Origin: Desulfobacteraceae bacterium
GTDB taxonomy: Bacteria > Desulfobacterota > Desulfobacteria > Desulfobacterales > BuS5
Direction: 5' to 3'
DNA: 5,329 nucleotides
Assembly: GCA_030592105.1 (NCBI GenBank)
Contig: JAUVKE010000195.1
Coordinates: 1-5,329, forward strand
The notes under the pieces are model-generated. The model ran no database searches and was not told the origin of the DNA. It saw only the letters and a program-made list of their open reading frames with translations. This document shows, piece by piece, positions 946 to 5,310 of this stretch (position 1 is the stretch's first letter; every line of letters starts with the position of its first letter). The translations under genes and the position numbers were made by a program.

Positions 946-1824
946 TCAGCTTTTTTTTTCGTTCCCCGTTTTTTTTCTTCTGGCCTCGTATCTAAGGGTT
1001 CCTTCTTTAAATAGTTTATCTTCCTTTTCAGTACAAACGACAAGCTGCGGAATTTCGGTGGGCTTCCCCTTTTCATCAAGAGCCACCATAATAAAATAGG
1101 CGGTCAGCGATTTGGCCCTCTTTTCCGTAAACAGATCTTCCGTATCAACTTCTATCTGTACCTCCATGGATGAATGACTGGCAAAGGTTATCCTGGCATG
1201 AATCAACACTAATTCTCCGACACGTACAGGATGCAGAAAGTGTATTTCATTAACCATTGCCGTCACCACATTACAGTGACAATGGCGTGCGGCCACCACA
1301 CCTGCAGCATTGTCCATCAATTTCATCAACTCTCCCCCATGGACATAACCGGACGGATTTGCTTGTTCAGGTAGCATAACCTGCGCCATATCAACCGTTG
1401 AATGACTTACGGTTCTTCCCTCCTGGGGTACCCCTTTATTATATTTTTCTAAGAGCCCGCGAAATTGTTTTTCATGTCTTTTTTCGACTTTGGCCATTCG
1501 TCTGAAAAAAGTTGCAATTTCATCAAAACCCTCTTCTGAGGCTACCTGGGCTGCATGGGGATAAAGCCTTTCCGCCTCATTATGCTCCTTGCCAATTGAT
1601 AACTCCAGCTCCTGGATAACATCTCCTATTCCGCCAAGAAAGTTGAATTCATGTTCGGCATGTTCGGCTTCATTTAAAGCCGTTTGAAACAATATGTCTG
1701 CCAGGTGTTCATATCCCGCCTTTCGGGCGGCGGAGGCACCATACTTATATCTGGCATGGGCGTTTAATTCATTCTGAAAAGCTTTTTGCAGATTTTTTTC
1801 TGTCTTGCTTCCTTTAAATGTCAT
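946..1824 (-). CDS. Rubrerythrin diiron domain fused to hotdog acyl-CoA thioesterase
   Basis: One uninterrupted frame of 292 residues carries two unrelated domains. Residues 1-130 are an erythrin-type four-helix diiron domain. All expected iron ligands are present: E19, E52, H55 (ExxH), E80, E83, E114 and H117 (ExxH). Rubrerythrins reduce hydrogen peroxide in anaerobes, taking electrons from a C-terminal rubredoxin domain or a partner. Here there are no paired CxxC rubredoxin motifs. Residues about 135-262 are instead a YciA/BACH-like hotdog acyl-CoA thioesterase, with NPSGYVHGG at 156-164, MD at 170-171 (D171 the expected acidic catalytic residue), VVTA, and HFLHPVRVGE. Such domains hydrolyse acyl-CoA to free acid and CoA. 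The tail (about 263-292) is charged and lysine-rich. The start at 1824 is chosen over the longer frame start at 1872 because GGAGGAG precedes it and the rubrerythrin alignment begins with its MTFKGSKTEKN. It is cytoplasmic, with no signal peptide or membrane segment. It lies 95 nt downstream of vapC on the same strand. Confidence 0.9.
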   Translation of the reverse strand: MTFKGSKTEKNLQKAFQNELNAHARYKYGASAARKAGYEHLADILFQTALNEAEHAEHEFNFLGGIGDVIQELELSIGKEHNEAERLYPHAAQVASEEGFDEIATFFRRMAKVEKRHEKQFRGLLEKYNKGVPQEGRTVSHSTVDMAQVMLPEQANPSGYVHGGELMKLMDNAAGVVAARHCHCNVVTAMVNEIHFLHPVRVGELVLIHARITFASHSSMEVQIEVDTEDLFTEKRAKSLTAYFIMVALDEKGKPTEIPQLVVCTEKEDKLFKEGTLRYEARRKKTGNEKKS

Positions 1825-1827
1825 TTT

Positions 1828-1834
1828 CTCCTCC
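1828..1834 (-). promoter_or_regulatory. Ribosome binding site deciding the start of the fusion gene
   Basis: Minus-strand GGAGGAG ends 3 nt before the ATG at 1824. The more upstream in-frame ATG at 1872 has no comparable purine-rich site, and the ATG at 1836 overlaps this site, so 1824 is the supported start. Confidence 0.8.
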
Positions 1835-1919: not shown

Positions 1920-2303
1920 TTATTTGTTGACGATTTTAGGAAAAAATTTAACATTCGGTATATCCTTAAAATCTGAATCCTGAGTCCATATGGTGCAGGC
2001 ATATAATTGTGCGGTGGACAATATAAGACTATTTGCCATAGGAAGAGTGTACTTTATACTTAATTTTGACGCTGTCATTGCAATGCTTGTTGTAAGCTCA
2101 ATAACCTGCCCCTTTTCCATAGCTGCAATTGCTTGTATTGCTTCATTCTCTGAAAATTCCCGTAAAACTATTTTGAATACTTCATAAATTGTGATGACTG
2201 GAACAATTAATGAAGATGAATCCTTAAGCGGTGTCAGAAATTTATCTGCGTTCGGACCGTCCGCAAAGTACTCAAGCCATCCTGAGGTATCGACAACATT
2301 CAT
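1920..2303 (-). CDS. vapC: VapC-type PIN-domain ribonuclease toxin with Asp-to-Asn at an active-site position
   Basis: 127 residues, the usual size of a VapC toxin. The family cleaves RNA (often tRNA or rRNA) with a magnesium site built from four acidic residues and is held inactive by its antitoxin. Seen here: D5 in NVVDTSGWLEYF, E41 in TIYEVFK, and D109 and D111 in TIWTQDSDF. The third acidic position, normally Asp in a motif like LPxADSLI, reads LPMANSLI with N91 (codon AAT at 2033-2031). Asn for Asp should weaken metal binding, so the toxin may be impaired, although the frame is intact. The ATG overlaps the vapB stop (ATGA, 2300-2303) and has only a weak ribosome site, so translation is probably coupled to vapB. 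The family call is firm. Loss of activity is an inference from one residue. Confidence 0.9.
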   Translation of the reverse strand: MNVVDTSGWLEYFADGPNADKFLTPLKDSSSLIVPVITIYEVFKIVLREFSENEAIQAIAAMEKGQVIELTTSIAMTASKLSIKYTLPMANSLILSTAQLYACTIWTQDSDFKDIPNVKFFPKIVNK

Positions 2304-2506
2304 AGTCTATCTTTCTCACGTTTAAAATCAGTATTTATTCCTTTAAGAAATCCTTTTAATTCGGAAATATTTTTATCAGGAATTAGCTCAATCCTTCCGT
2401 CATATTCTATAATTTTCATTTTTTGGCCTGGACGGAGCTTTAGGGCCAACCGGATATTTTTTGGGATAACTACCTGATATTTTGGTGATACTGTTACAGT
2501 GTGCAT
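2300..2506 (-). CDS. vapB: AbrB/SpoVT-type antitoxin, partner of the PIN toxin
   Basis: 68 residues. Residues 3-43 form the swapped-hairpin AbrB/MazE-like DNA-binding fold: TVSPKYQVVIPKNIR, then LRPGQKMKIIEYDGRIELIP. This is the standard antitoxin dimer that binds its own promoter. The charged C-terminal tail (about 45-68, ELKGFLKGINTDFKRE) is the part that normally wraps the PIN toxin and blocks its active site. The length is typical for the family. The start is fixed by AGGAGG five bases upstream. It is first in a two-gene operon, overlapping vapC by 4 bp, and sits just downstream of a palindrome-rich region that is a good candidate for autoregulation. The gene looks intact. Confidence 0.9.
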   Translation of the reverse strand: MHTVTVSPKYQVVIPKNIRLALKLRPGQKMKIIEYDGRIELIPDKNISELKGFLKGINTDFKREKDRL

Positions 2507-2979: not shown

Positions 2980-3588
2980 ATGAAACTTTACTATGTACCT
3001 GGAGCCTGCTCCATGGCAGCGCATATTGTATTGCGTGAGTCGGGTCTTGACTTTGATCTGATCAAGGTTGACCTCGACACCAGGAAAACGGAAAAAGGTG
3101 ATGATTTCATCAGAATCAATCCCAAAGGTTACGTACCTGCGCTGCAATTAAATGACAACAAAATTCTGACTGAATGTGCGGTTATTATGCAATTTGTCGC
3201 AGATCAAAAGCCTGGGTCAGGTCTGGCACCGGCAGCCGGAACAATGGACCGCTACCGTCTTATGGAGACTCTTCACTTTATTTCCACGGAACTGCACCAA
3301 AGTTTTTCTCCTCTGTTTAATCCCCTGGTCTCAGGCGAAGAACGTGAAGGGGTACGTGACATCATTGCTACAAATTTAACTTACCTCAATGATCAACTAT
3401 CCGGTAAAAAATTTCTTATGGGAGATACCTTCACTATTGCTGATGCCTATCTGGCTACTGTGCTCGGTTGGACCGGACATGTTCAGATTGATCTTGCACC
3501 CTGGCCAAACCTTGGCTCCTACCTTGCTCAAATAATGTCTCGTCCAGCTGTGCAAAAAACCCTTAAGGCCGAAGGCCTGGCTGAATGA
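2980..3588 (+). CDS. gst: Beta-class glutathione S-transferase
   Basis: 202 residues, full length for a bacterial beta-class enzyme, and similar along its whole length to the E. coli Gst type as I recall it. The N-terminal thioredoxin-like domain (about 1-80) begins KLYYVPGACSMAAHI, with Cys10, the residue that forms the mixed disulfide with glutathione in this class. The NPKGYVPAL segment (47-55) holds the cis-proline after V52, and E65 lies in the glutathione-binding TEC turn. The all-helical domain (about 87-202) has STELHQSF with His106, the second conserved active-site residue, and FTIADAYL (151-158), the N-capping box of the GST fold. The family conjugates or reduces electrophiles with glutathione in the cytoplasm; the substrate cannot be told from sequence. 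It stands alone, with vapBC divergent on the left and a non-coding stretch on the right. It ends in tandem TGA stops. The three-letter symbol is generic. Confidence 0.93.
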   Translation: MKLYYVPGACSMAAHIVLRESGLDFDLIKVDLDTRKTEKGDDFIRINPKGYVPALQLNDNKILTECAVIMQFVADQKPGSGLAPAAGTMDRYRLMETLHFISTELHQSFSPLFNPLVSGEEREGVRDIIATNLTYLNDQLSGKKFLMGDTFTIADAYLATVLGWTGHVQIDLAPWPNLGSYLAQIMSRPAVQKTLKAEGLAE

Positions 3589-3794: not shown

Positions 3795-3917
3795 CTGCGG
3801 GTAAAAAAATCCAATTTTTTAAGTTTAAAATGGTTAGCAGGGCATGACTGCTGTTATTTGTAAGGGGCAAACCTGTACTTTAACTGTTTTTCCTGGAAAG
3901 AAAGAAGTAATATATTG

Positions 3918-3923
3918 AAAGGG
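3918..3923 (+). promoter_or_regulatory. Possible ribosome binding site of the Rpn-like gene
   Basis: AAAGGG ends 9 nt before the ATG at 3933. It is moderate, but better than anything before the in-frame TTG at 3915, and the in-frame GTG at 3927 lies too close to it. Confidence 0.4.
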
Positions 3924-3932
3924 CGGGTGCTT

Positions 3933-4853
3933 ATGACAAAACAATCACACGATCACAATTTTAAAAACCTGTTTTTAGATTTTCCAAAAGAAACTTTGAA
4001 TTGGTTTTTTCCCCAAGCAGAGCAAAATTGGGGGGAGGTTCGTAAAATTGAATTTGTTCGTCAGGAACCGAGAAAACAGAAACTTCCTGATCCGAGTCTG
4101 TCATTAGACATGCCTATTTTATTTTCTTTTGAAAATCAGCAATTGCTTTTGTGGCTGGTTGAGTTTCAGGAAGACAAGTCAAAATTTTCAATATATAAAT
4201 TGCTGCATTATACAACAGACCTGATGGAAGCTTATCCTCAGGCAGAGGTAATCCCGGCGGTTTTATTTACTGATCGTACCAAATGGCGTAAAGATGTTAT
4301 CCGTAAACTGGAAACAAAATTAAATAACAGGCTCTTTTTACATTTTGAATATCAGTTTTTCAAGCTATTTGACTTTAATGCACGGGATTATTATACTCTT
4401 AACAATCCTGTTGTTAAAATATTACTGCCGAAAATGAATTATAAGAAGGATGAACGAATAGAGGTGATAAGGCAGGCATACTCAGGATTATTTCAACTTG
4501 CATCCCGTGGGCTTTTTGATAAGTATGTCGATTTTATTGATATCTATGCAAAGGTAAGCAAAAAAGAACAAAAAAAAATATACCATGACATAATTCAGCA
4601 TAAGGAGACGGCTATGCTATCACAATATATTAGAGAAAAAGGTATGCAGGAGGGGATGCAGCAGGGGATGCAGCAGGGAATAATTCAGAATGCAAAAGAA
4701 AATATCATAGAGGTTCTTGAATTACGTTTTGGGGAAATTTCACCGGAAATAATTGATAAAATAAATCAGATAAATGACCCCGTACAGTTAAAAGAGCTTC
4801 ATAAGAAGGCTGTAAAGATAAAAGAAATTGATAGTTTTAAATTCATTTGCTGA
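3933..4853 (+). CDS. Rpn/YhgA-like PD-(D/E)XK protein with DUF4351-like tail
   Basis: 306 residues from the ATG at 3933; an in-frame TTG at 3915 would add six residues but has a worse ribosome site. The start, HDHNFKNLFLDFPKETLNWFF, is like the N-terminus of Rpn/YhgA proteins, once called putative transposases and now known as recombination-promoting nucleases. The nuclease-fold core is visible: D59 (SLSLDMP) on one strand, then WLVEFQ with the E77-x-Q79 form of the E-x-K motif, followed by the YKLLHYTTDLMEAYP helix and a VIPAVLFTD strand. Residues 238-249 are three MQ(E/Q)G units, a Gln/Gly-rich linker common in this group. Residues about 255-303 (ENIIEVLELRFGEISPEII) resemble DUF4351, a helical C-terminal add-on. 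The role is poorly defined; some E. coli members cut DNA and raise recombination. No partner gene is adjacent. The family call is good, nuclease activity is inferred. Confidence 0.8.
   Translation: MTKQSHDHNFKNLFLDFPKETLNWFFPQAEQNWGEVRKIEFVRQEPRKQKLPDPSLSLDMPILFSFENQQLLLWLVEFQEDKSKFSIYKLLHYTTDLMEAYPQAEVIPAVLFTDRTKWRKDVIRKLETKLNNRLFLHFEYQFFKLFDFNARDYYTLNNPVVKILLPKMNYKKDERIEVIRQAYSGLFQLASRGLFDKYVDFIDIYAKVSKKEQKKIYHDIIQHKETAMLSQYIREKGMQEGMQQGMQQGIIQNAKENIIEVLELRFGEISPEIIDKINQINDPVQLKELHKKAVKIKEIDSFKFIC
4644..4679 (+). repeat. Three 12-bp in-frame tandem repeats inside the Rpn-like gene
   Basis: ATGCAGGAGGGG (4644-4655), ATGCAGCAGGGG (4656-4667) and ATGCAGCAGGGA (4668-4679) encode MQEG-MQQG-MQQG. 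Units differ by one base each. A gain or loss of a unit keeps the frame and only changes linker length between the nuclease core and the C-terminal helices. Confidence 0.9.
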
Positions 4854-5267: not shown

Positions 5268-5295
5268 GTCCCTATTATGTCCCTATTATGTCCCT
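5268..5295. repeat. 11-bp tandem repeat GTCCCTATTAT beside the transposase remnant
   Basis: Two exact copies (5268-5278, 5279-5289) and a 6-bp partial third (GTCCCT, 5290-5295). It starts 10 nt after the stop of the remnant. RAYT genes are typically flanked by short repeated sequences, so this may be what is left of the element's end. It is too short and direct-abutting for a CRISPR array. Confidence 0.8.
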
Positions 5296-5310
5296 TTGTT
5301 TTTATGTATC

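Follow-up and report, generated by a model that had tools for sequence, protein, structure and literature searches.

Classical rubrerythrins, such as D. vulgaris Rbr (1b71) and C. difficile P28 (9fj2), carry a four-helix diiron domain followed by a rubredoxin domain. The fusion protein described here shares the diiron domain, with the seven iron ligands and the tyrosines Y26 and Y88 aligned to 1b71, but has a thioesterase instead of the rubredoxin domain and a B–C span 13 residues shorter than that of 1b71. Sulerythrin/ferriperoxin and P. furiosus rubrerythrin are domain-swapped or predicted to be so; the fusion differs from them in being kin, by sequence, to the rubredoxin-bearing rubrerythrins and in having an extra enzyme domain. 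On the thioesterase side, the described systems are ACOT7/BACH and bacterial acyl-CoA hydrolases (1vpm and S. aureus 5egj/5egk), from which the fusion is set apart by the diiron domain ahead of its hotdog. ACOT7 has two hotdogs per chain, unlike the fusion.

The nearest published analogue that we found is HydR of Clostridium perfringens, which the available excerpts of PMC11926857 describe as a [FeFe]-hydrogenase–rubrerythrin chimera coupling H2 oxidation to peroxide reduction. In both HydR and the fusion, a rubrerythrin is joined to a metabolic enzyme. According to the same excerpts, however, the partner in HydR supplies electrons, which the thioesterase of the fusion, being no redox enzyme, cannot do. 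Both halves of the fusion are known enzymes, and no description of their pairing was found in the searchable passages of the full-text literature, which holds few subscription papers. The passages of PMC2996986 and PMC4667449 that were available mention both proteins as products of separate genes, in contexts unrelated to each other; those of PMC11650866, on Chloroflexota, make no mention of a thioesterase, and the word is absent from those of PMC5114695, a survey of rubrerythrin domains. Some source databases name members "acyl-CoA hydrolase/rubrerythrin" (among the 120 matches listed), and the architecture has thus already been seen by annotation pipelines.

The fusion gene and its two domains

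The window, which is the whole stretch of 5,329 nucleotides that was analysed, contains the fusion gene at 946..1824 on the minus strand, a strand that the initial annotation did not give. The gene is a single open frame of 292 residues with homologues that carry both domains. Pfam assigned Rubrerythrin (PF02915) to residues 10–124 (E = 3.4e-16) and 4HBT (PF03061) to residues 159–230 (E = 2.1e-18), both above the cut-off, so the claim of the initial annotation that one frame joins a rubrerythrin to a thioesterase was borne out. A stop or frameshift between the domains, which would have made them two genes, was not found, and the homologues (best 120 of 789) are likewise two-domain proteins. 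The putative start codon, ATG at 1824–1822, is directly preceded by a Shine–Dalgarno-like GGAGGAG (1828..1834, minus strand) that we read from the sequence. Alternative starts of the frame are an in-frame ATG 4 codons and a TTG 16 codons upstream; the ATG at 1824 fits the M-x-L-K-G-S-K-T start of the relatives.

The PDB sequence matches of the N-terminal part were rubrerythrins, and those of the C-terminal part were ACOT7 and bacterial acyl-CoA hydrolases. Neither PF21349 nor PF00301 matched the window protein at E ≤ 0.001, and the rubredoxin-like domain of classical rubrerythrins is absent. The NCBIfam equivalogs for rubrerythrin (NF045767, 103.8 bits over residues 3–130 only, cut-off 200) and YciA (NF007970, 63.1 bits, cut-off 162) both scored below their thresholds.

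All features of the fusion gene given here lie on the minus strand. The diiron domain (residues 1–131, 1432..1824), delimited by PF02915, PDB matches and models, has helices at residues 7–35, 39–62, 69–97 and 101–130 and carries the rubrerythrin ligand set E..ExxH..ExxE..ExxH. All seven ligands proposed in the initial annotation fell in the same alignment columns as their counterparts in 1b71, the D. vulgaris rubrerythrin. These are E19 (1768..1770), E52 and H55 in the ExxH of helix B (1660..1671), E80 and E83 in helix C (1576..1587), and E114 and H117 in helix D (1474..1485). The model places an interdomain linker at residues 131–142 (1399..1434), and the hotdog acyl-CoA thioesterase domain covers residues 136–285 (970..1419). 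Its active-site segment, N156..HGG162–164..D171 (1312..1359), contains the NPSGYVHGG...MD site, which is intact over residues 156–171 as had been claimed. In an ungapped structural alignment to the S. aureus hydrolase mutants 5egj and 5egk, N156 and D171 superposed on Asn28 and Asp43, the residues named as mutated in the titles of these two PDB entries (for 5egj, model residues 133–292 on chain residues 5–164, 160 aligned). The window protein has the hotdog fold with the catalytic Asn and Asp of BACH/YciA-like enzymes.

The full-length single-chain model reached a pLDDT of 94.3 and a pTM of 0.84. Since the structure matches listed for the whole model covered only the hotdog half, the diiron domain was modelled alone, and this single-chain model matched domain-swapped rubrerythrins; 1b71 was not among the 50 structure matches listed for it, a listing that carries no weight against likeness. 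The span from H55 to E80 was 26 residues in 128/128 and 61/61 fusions, compared to 39 in most relatives (13 shorter). The B–C loop, comprising residues 63–68 (1621..1638) according to this span and the helix ends of the model, is short and predicted to favour domain swapping. Loop length and model together point to a possible domain-swapped dimer for the diiron part, which shifts the question raised in the initial annotation of how a rubrerythrin dimer could be compatible with a hotdog hexamer.

A diiron site lying between subunits, as predicted from loop length and structure matches, could also serve in redox gating, with the swapped-dimer site sensing peroxide or oxygen and switching acyl-CoA hydrolysis through the helix-D linker, and with a donor resetting it. 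Such gating is in line with the confidence of the full-length model, with the stretch of residues 118–142, which was 25 residues long in 128/128 aligned fusions, and with a related thioesterase that is regulated by nucleotides, as PDB titles on GDP-mediated regulation indicate. We nevertheless judge it unlikely, given that conserved ligands and the proximity of rubredoxin genes (see below) are equally expected of a plain peroxidase and that two members with damaged iron sites retain the thioesterase site.

Distribution, origin and conservation of the family

Among about 5.8 billion proteins searched, with a reach limited to relatives that share 5-residue words with the query, 789 matched at E ≤ 1e-10, and PF02915 and PF03061 were both present in the best 120 of these 789. 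The database search for the same architecture that the initial annotation had suggested thus revealed a conserved family and no single oddity. Scanning a genome collection gave 22 loci, 16 of which match nearly the whole protein; in two others (L002, matching to residue 262, and L018, to residue 191) the fusion runs into a contig end, and the remaining four (L019–L022) match to one half only or mainly. The probability that two genes were joined in error during sequencing or assembly is practically negligible: some database entries (P0244, P0264) list the C-terminal part alone, but an artefact or chimera is refuted by the best 120 of the 789 homologues, which are two-domain proteins of 284–325 aa, by the 16 nearly full-length loci and by further genomes.

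Judged by their titles, the fusion loci belong to Dehalococcoidia, Dehalococcoidales, Chloroflexi/Chloroflexota, Deltaproteobacteria, Syntrophales and Syntrophaceae. Prevalence was patchy across taxa. At E ≤ 1e-70, and in genome sets that overlap and include the query genomes, the fusion was found in 15/84 genomes of one Dehalococcoidia order (that of G007), 4/156 of the order and 3/400 of the phylum of G006, 2/8 of the class and 8/395 of the phylum of G001, 7/155 of the class of G012, and 2/46 of the class of G014. A plasmid or viral gene was rejected within the reach of the searches, in which no plasmid record covered 80% of the fusion protein and no viral contig encoded a relative when two peptide patterns were searched. 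The fusion had no match among anti-phage families. The source contigs of the half-length entries P0244 and P0264, which hold the thioesterase half alone, correspond to ones encoding the full fusion, and an internal start was probably chosen for them.

Relatives of the diiron domain alone carried the rubredoxin-like domain PF21349 in 118 of the best 120 (of 215), and the two listed relatives lacking it were a fragment of a fusion (P0122) and a 113-aa piece (P0128). Because the diiron-domain relatives bear rubredoxin, the thioesterase stands in place of rubredoxin by true replacement, as first proposed. An ancestor that never had a rubredoxin domain is ruled out by the same listed relatives. For single-domain trees, 24 rubrerythrins and 20 thioesterases were picked from the lists of matches, and two loci with altered iron sites (L038 and L039) were left out. 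In both trees, the 25 fusions fell on one side of one branch (support 100/100 for the N-domain and 93/88 for the C-domain); the long branches L015 and L016 join, with unsure placement, and bootstrap values for the N-domain tree were not yet stable. A single fusion event with replacement of rubredoxin is probably the simplest reading.

Conservation was high at both active sites. An alignment of 128 distinct fusions, made up of 8 loci and the 120 proteins listed and deliberately confined to close relatives, had E19, Y26, E52, H55, E80, Y88, E114, H117, N156, H162, G163, G164 and D171 as invariant residues (128/128). At position 83, 108 sequences had E, 19 had D and one had Q. The active-site segment of the thioesterase was also invariant in 61/61 fusions. 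Among 36 loci including more distant members, N156 and D171 were present in 36/36 and the six core iron ligands in 34/36 (E52 in 36, and E19, H55, E114 and H117 in 35 each), while E83 was replaced by D in four loci and by Q in one. Core ligands were lost in L038 (genome G457), with E114 to A and H117 to Q, and in L039 (genome G458), with E19 to K and H55 to C; the thioesterase site was intact in both. Judging from these substitutions, the iron site is decayed at least in L038 and L039, and the thioesterase site, kept in all 36 loci, looks like the more constrained half of the fusion. These two loci could serve as natural controls.

The same pattern would fit if acyl-CoA hydrolysis were the essential activity and the diiron domain were a protective or oligomerising attachment that has no catalytic coupling and can decay. 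Hotdog relatives form hexamers according to their PDB titles, which would suit an attachment of this kind. The retention of the six core ligands in 34/36 loci and in 128/128 close relatives argues against it, as does the oxygen-defence context of the gene in one order, and we see it as unlikely.

Gene neighbourhoods and a possible joint function

The initial annotation held that the electron donor would have to be a separate protein, and candidates for such a donor were found. A PF00301 rubredoxin was detected in 27/30 fusion genomes (no match in G001, G010 and G482). In the order of G007, 13/15 fusion genomes had exactly one PF00301 match. Measured between match edges, this sole rubredoxin and the fusion were 21 to 6,469 bp (at most 6.5 kb) apart in 13/13 such genomes. 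The chance of one randomly placed gene being that near is 0.0004–0.008 per genome, and these probabilities do not multiply because the genomes are related. Rubredoxin matches were also present in 51/69 genomes of the same order without the fusion, so the presence of rubredoxin is not due to the fusion. Two rubredoxins each were found in G004, G006 and G016, none of them near the fusion (in G004 and G006 they share its contig, at a distance of 35 kb), and the deltaproteobacterial genomes among the 30 had no rubredoxin match near it. In G457 and G458, two of the 13 genomes with a single rubredoxin, this rubredoxin is located 40–42 bp from the fusion (about 40 bp upstream) despite the lost iron ligands, and proximity is therefore no proof of electron supply. 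The conserved ligands and the nearby rubredoxin speak for a catalytic role of the diiron domain and are still compatible with sensing. The small rubredoxin gene at about 6915–7040 of L012, between the fusion and a flavodiiron-like gene, was missed by the ORF caller and found by PF00301.

We compared the neighbourhoods of 38 distinct loci after removing duplicates (L024 = L009, L058 = L018); neighbours were labelled by phmmer to Pfam-typed references, and Pfam and NCBIfam were run on representatives. Oxygen-defence or Fe-S genes surround the fusion in 15/15 loci of the order of G007 (that of G482 taken from the short locus L035) and in L009. Their sets vary and include a thioredoxin-reductase-like flavoprotein, rubrerythrins, Hrb or rubredoxin, IscS/IscU or SufC/SufB, a flavodiiron-like protein, ferritin and desulfoferrodoxin. 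The flavodiiron identity is putative, as a PAS domain was found in the piece from L061 and the L007 copy has no NCBIfam match. In 8 loci measured with longest-ORF starts, the fusion lies 2–3 bp after Hrb or rubredoxin in L005 and L067, and 6–8 bp before IscS in L003, L007, L008 and L063. Gene order varies among loci, so the neighbourhood is not one frozen block.

The closeness of IscS in 4 of these 8 loci, and of SufC/SufB in others, would fit a ferritin-like domain that handles iron, as donor or sink, for the adjoining Fe-S assembly genes, with peroxide reduction secondary. This is very improbable, since the ligand set is that of rubrerythrin and since L005, L012 and L065–L068, where Hrb or rubredoxin is present, had no gene labelled IscS/IscU close to the fusion.

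A redox operon was not seen in 22/38 loci, including three Dehalococcoidales loci and the deltaproteobacterial loci, some with only 1.5 kb on each side. Directly upstream of the fusion is an acyl-CoA dehydrogenase gene in L001 and L002, from both fusion genomes of the deltaproteobacterial class of G001, and a protein deacylase gene, from either of two unrelated families, in four deltaproteobacterial loci (HDAC-like in L013 and L018, SIR2 in L047/L069 and L049/L071). An enoyl-CoA hydratase gene lies 2.7 kb upstream of the fusion in L069. The deacylase neighbours, in 4/38 loci from perhaps two lineages, are too few for a claim and suggestive only; the available sections of PMC9676460 report that reactive acyl-CoAs and sirtuins matter in syntrophs. 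HAD and SpoU genes adjoin the fusion in L004, L006 and L017, and a PNP-family gene and a two-component pair are near it in L054–L057 (typed in L054). The remaining 9 of the 22 loci had nothing telling among the typed neighbours, or a contig end.

In the order of G007, fusion genomes had more matches to the acyl-CoA dehydrogenase N-domain (median 16 in 15 genomes) than the other 69 genomes (median 10; p = 0.0006), and more per Mb (9.3 versus 6.2; p = 0.013, kinship not corrected). The fusion genomes are also larger (1.8 versus 1.4 Mb, p = 0.008), which confounds the count, and the excess is weak support for an acyl-CoA link. The tie between peroxide or redox state and acyl-CoA turnover that the initial annotation had put forward was upheld in part, as a link of oxygen stress to acyl-CoA chemistry that is supported by gene neighbourhood only (15/15 loci in one order, and acyl-CoA dehydrogenase in two deltaproteobacterial loci).

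We give an even chance to the fusion being a bifunctional enzyme of anaerobes, which during oxygen stress would act both as a peroxidase fed by rubredoxin and as an acyl-CoA hydrolase. The N-terminal diiron domain would reduce H2O2, and perhaps O2, to water, as rubrerythrins do. Its own rubredoxin domain being lost, it may depend for electrons on a separate donor, either rubredoxin or rubredoxin-flavin reductase (Hrb), the gene for which is near the fusion in the Dehalococcoidia order studied. The accessible excerpts of PMC3317640 present a rubrerythrin-like protein without rubredoxin as a working peroxidase with a separate reductase. In the swapped dimer, each diiron site would lie between two subunits, with E19, E52 and H55 from one chain and E80, E83, E114 and H117 from the other, and the C-terminal hotdog domain would hydrolyse acyl-CoA using N156 and D171. 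We infer both activities, the identity of the donor and the swapped dimer. Oxygen damages Fe-S and flavin enzymes, so that acyl-CoA oxidation stalls and acyl-CoAs accumulate, and electrons can escape from acyl-CoA dehydrogenases to O2. Under such stress, one protein could remove peroxide, drain acyl-CoA and return free CoA; that this is what makes the combination useful is our guess.

A peroxide- or oxygen-responsive thioesterase, in which the swapped-dimer diiron centre both destroys peroxide and mechanically sets hotdog activity, with the neighbouring rubredoxin resetting it, is quite unlikely in our estimate. Such an enzyme would tie the balance of free CoA and acyl-CoA directly to oxygen stress and, in Syntrophales and relatives, where deacylase genes adjoin the fusion, would in addition restrain the acylation of proteins by reactive acyl-CoA. 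If both sites of the bifunctional peroxidase–thioesterase work, anaerobes would have the removal of peroxide and the hydrolysis of acyl-CoA tied together in a single protein, and in uncultured Dehalococcoidia and Deltaproteobacteria oxygen stress would be linked directly to acyl-CoA oxidation. The fusion offers a clean test bed, with one protein, two assays and a single candidate rubredoxin donor in 13 genomes.

Other genes in the window

The upstream neighbour of the fusion in the window is a PIN-domain (VapC-like) gene (1920..2303, minus strand), typed by Pfam/NCBIfam. Together with an AbrB/MazE-type antitoxin gene, it makes up a VapBC-like antitoxin–toxin pair directly upstream of the fusion (1920–2506, minus strand). 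The window also contains a convergent dihydroorotate dehydrogenase gene. No redox or acyl-CoA gene was found in the 5.3-kb window except a glutathione S-transferase gene 1.2 kb from the fusion (2980–3588, plus strand), which scored 246.2 bits to the GstA equivalog (cut-off 198) and would be surprising should the host be strictly anaerobic. A 312-aa ORF with a GMQEGMQQGMQQG repeat (3915–4853, plus strand) had no Pfam or NCBIfam match; it presumably resembles Rpn-type transposase-like nucleases. Repeats in the window were short or imperfect two-copy pairs, and short tandem GTCCCTATTAT repeats were seen by eye at about 5268–5296, near the contig end.
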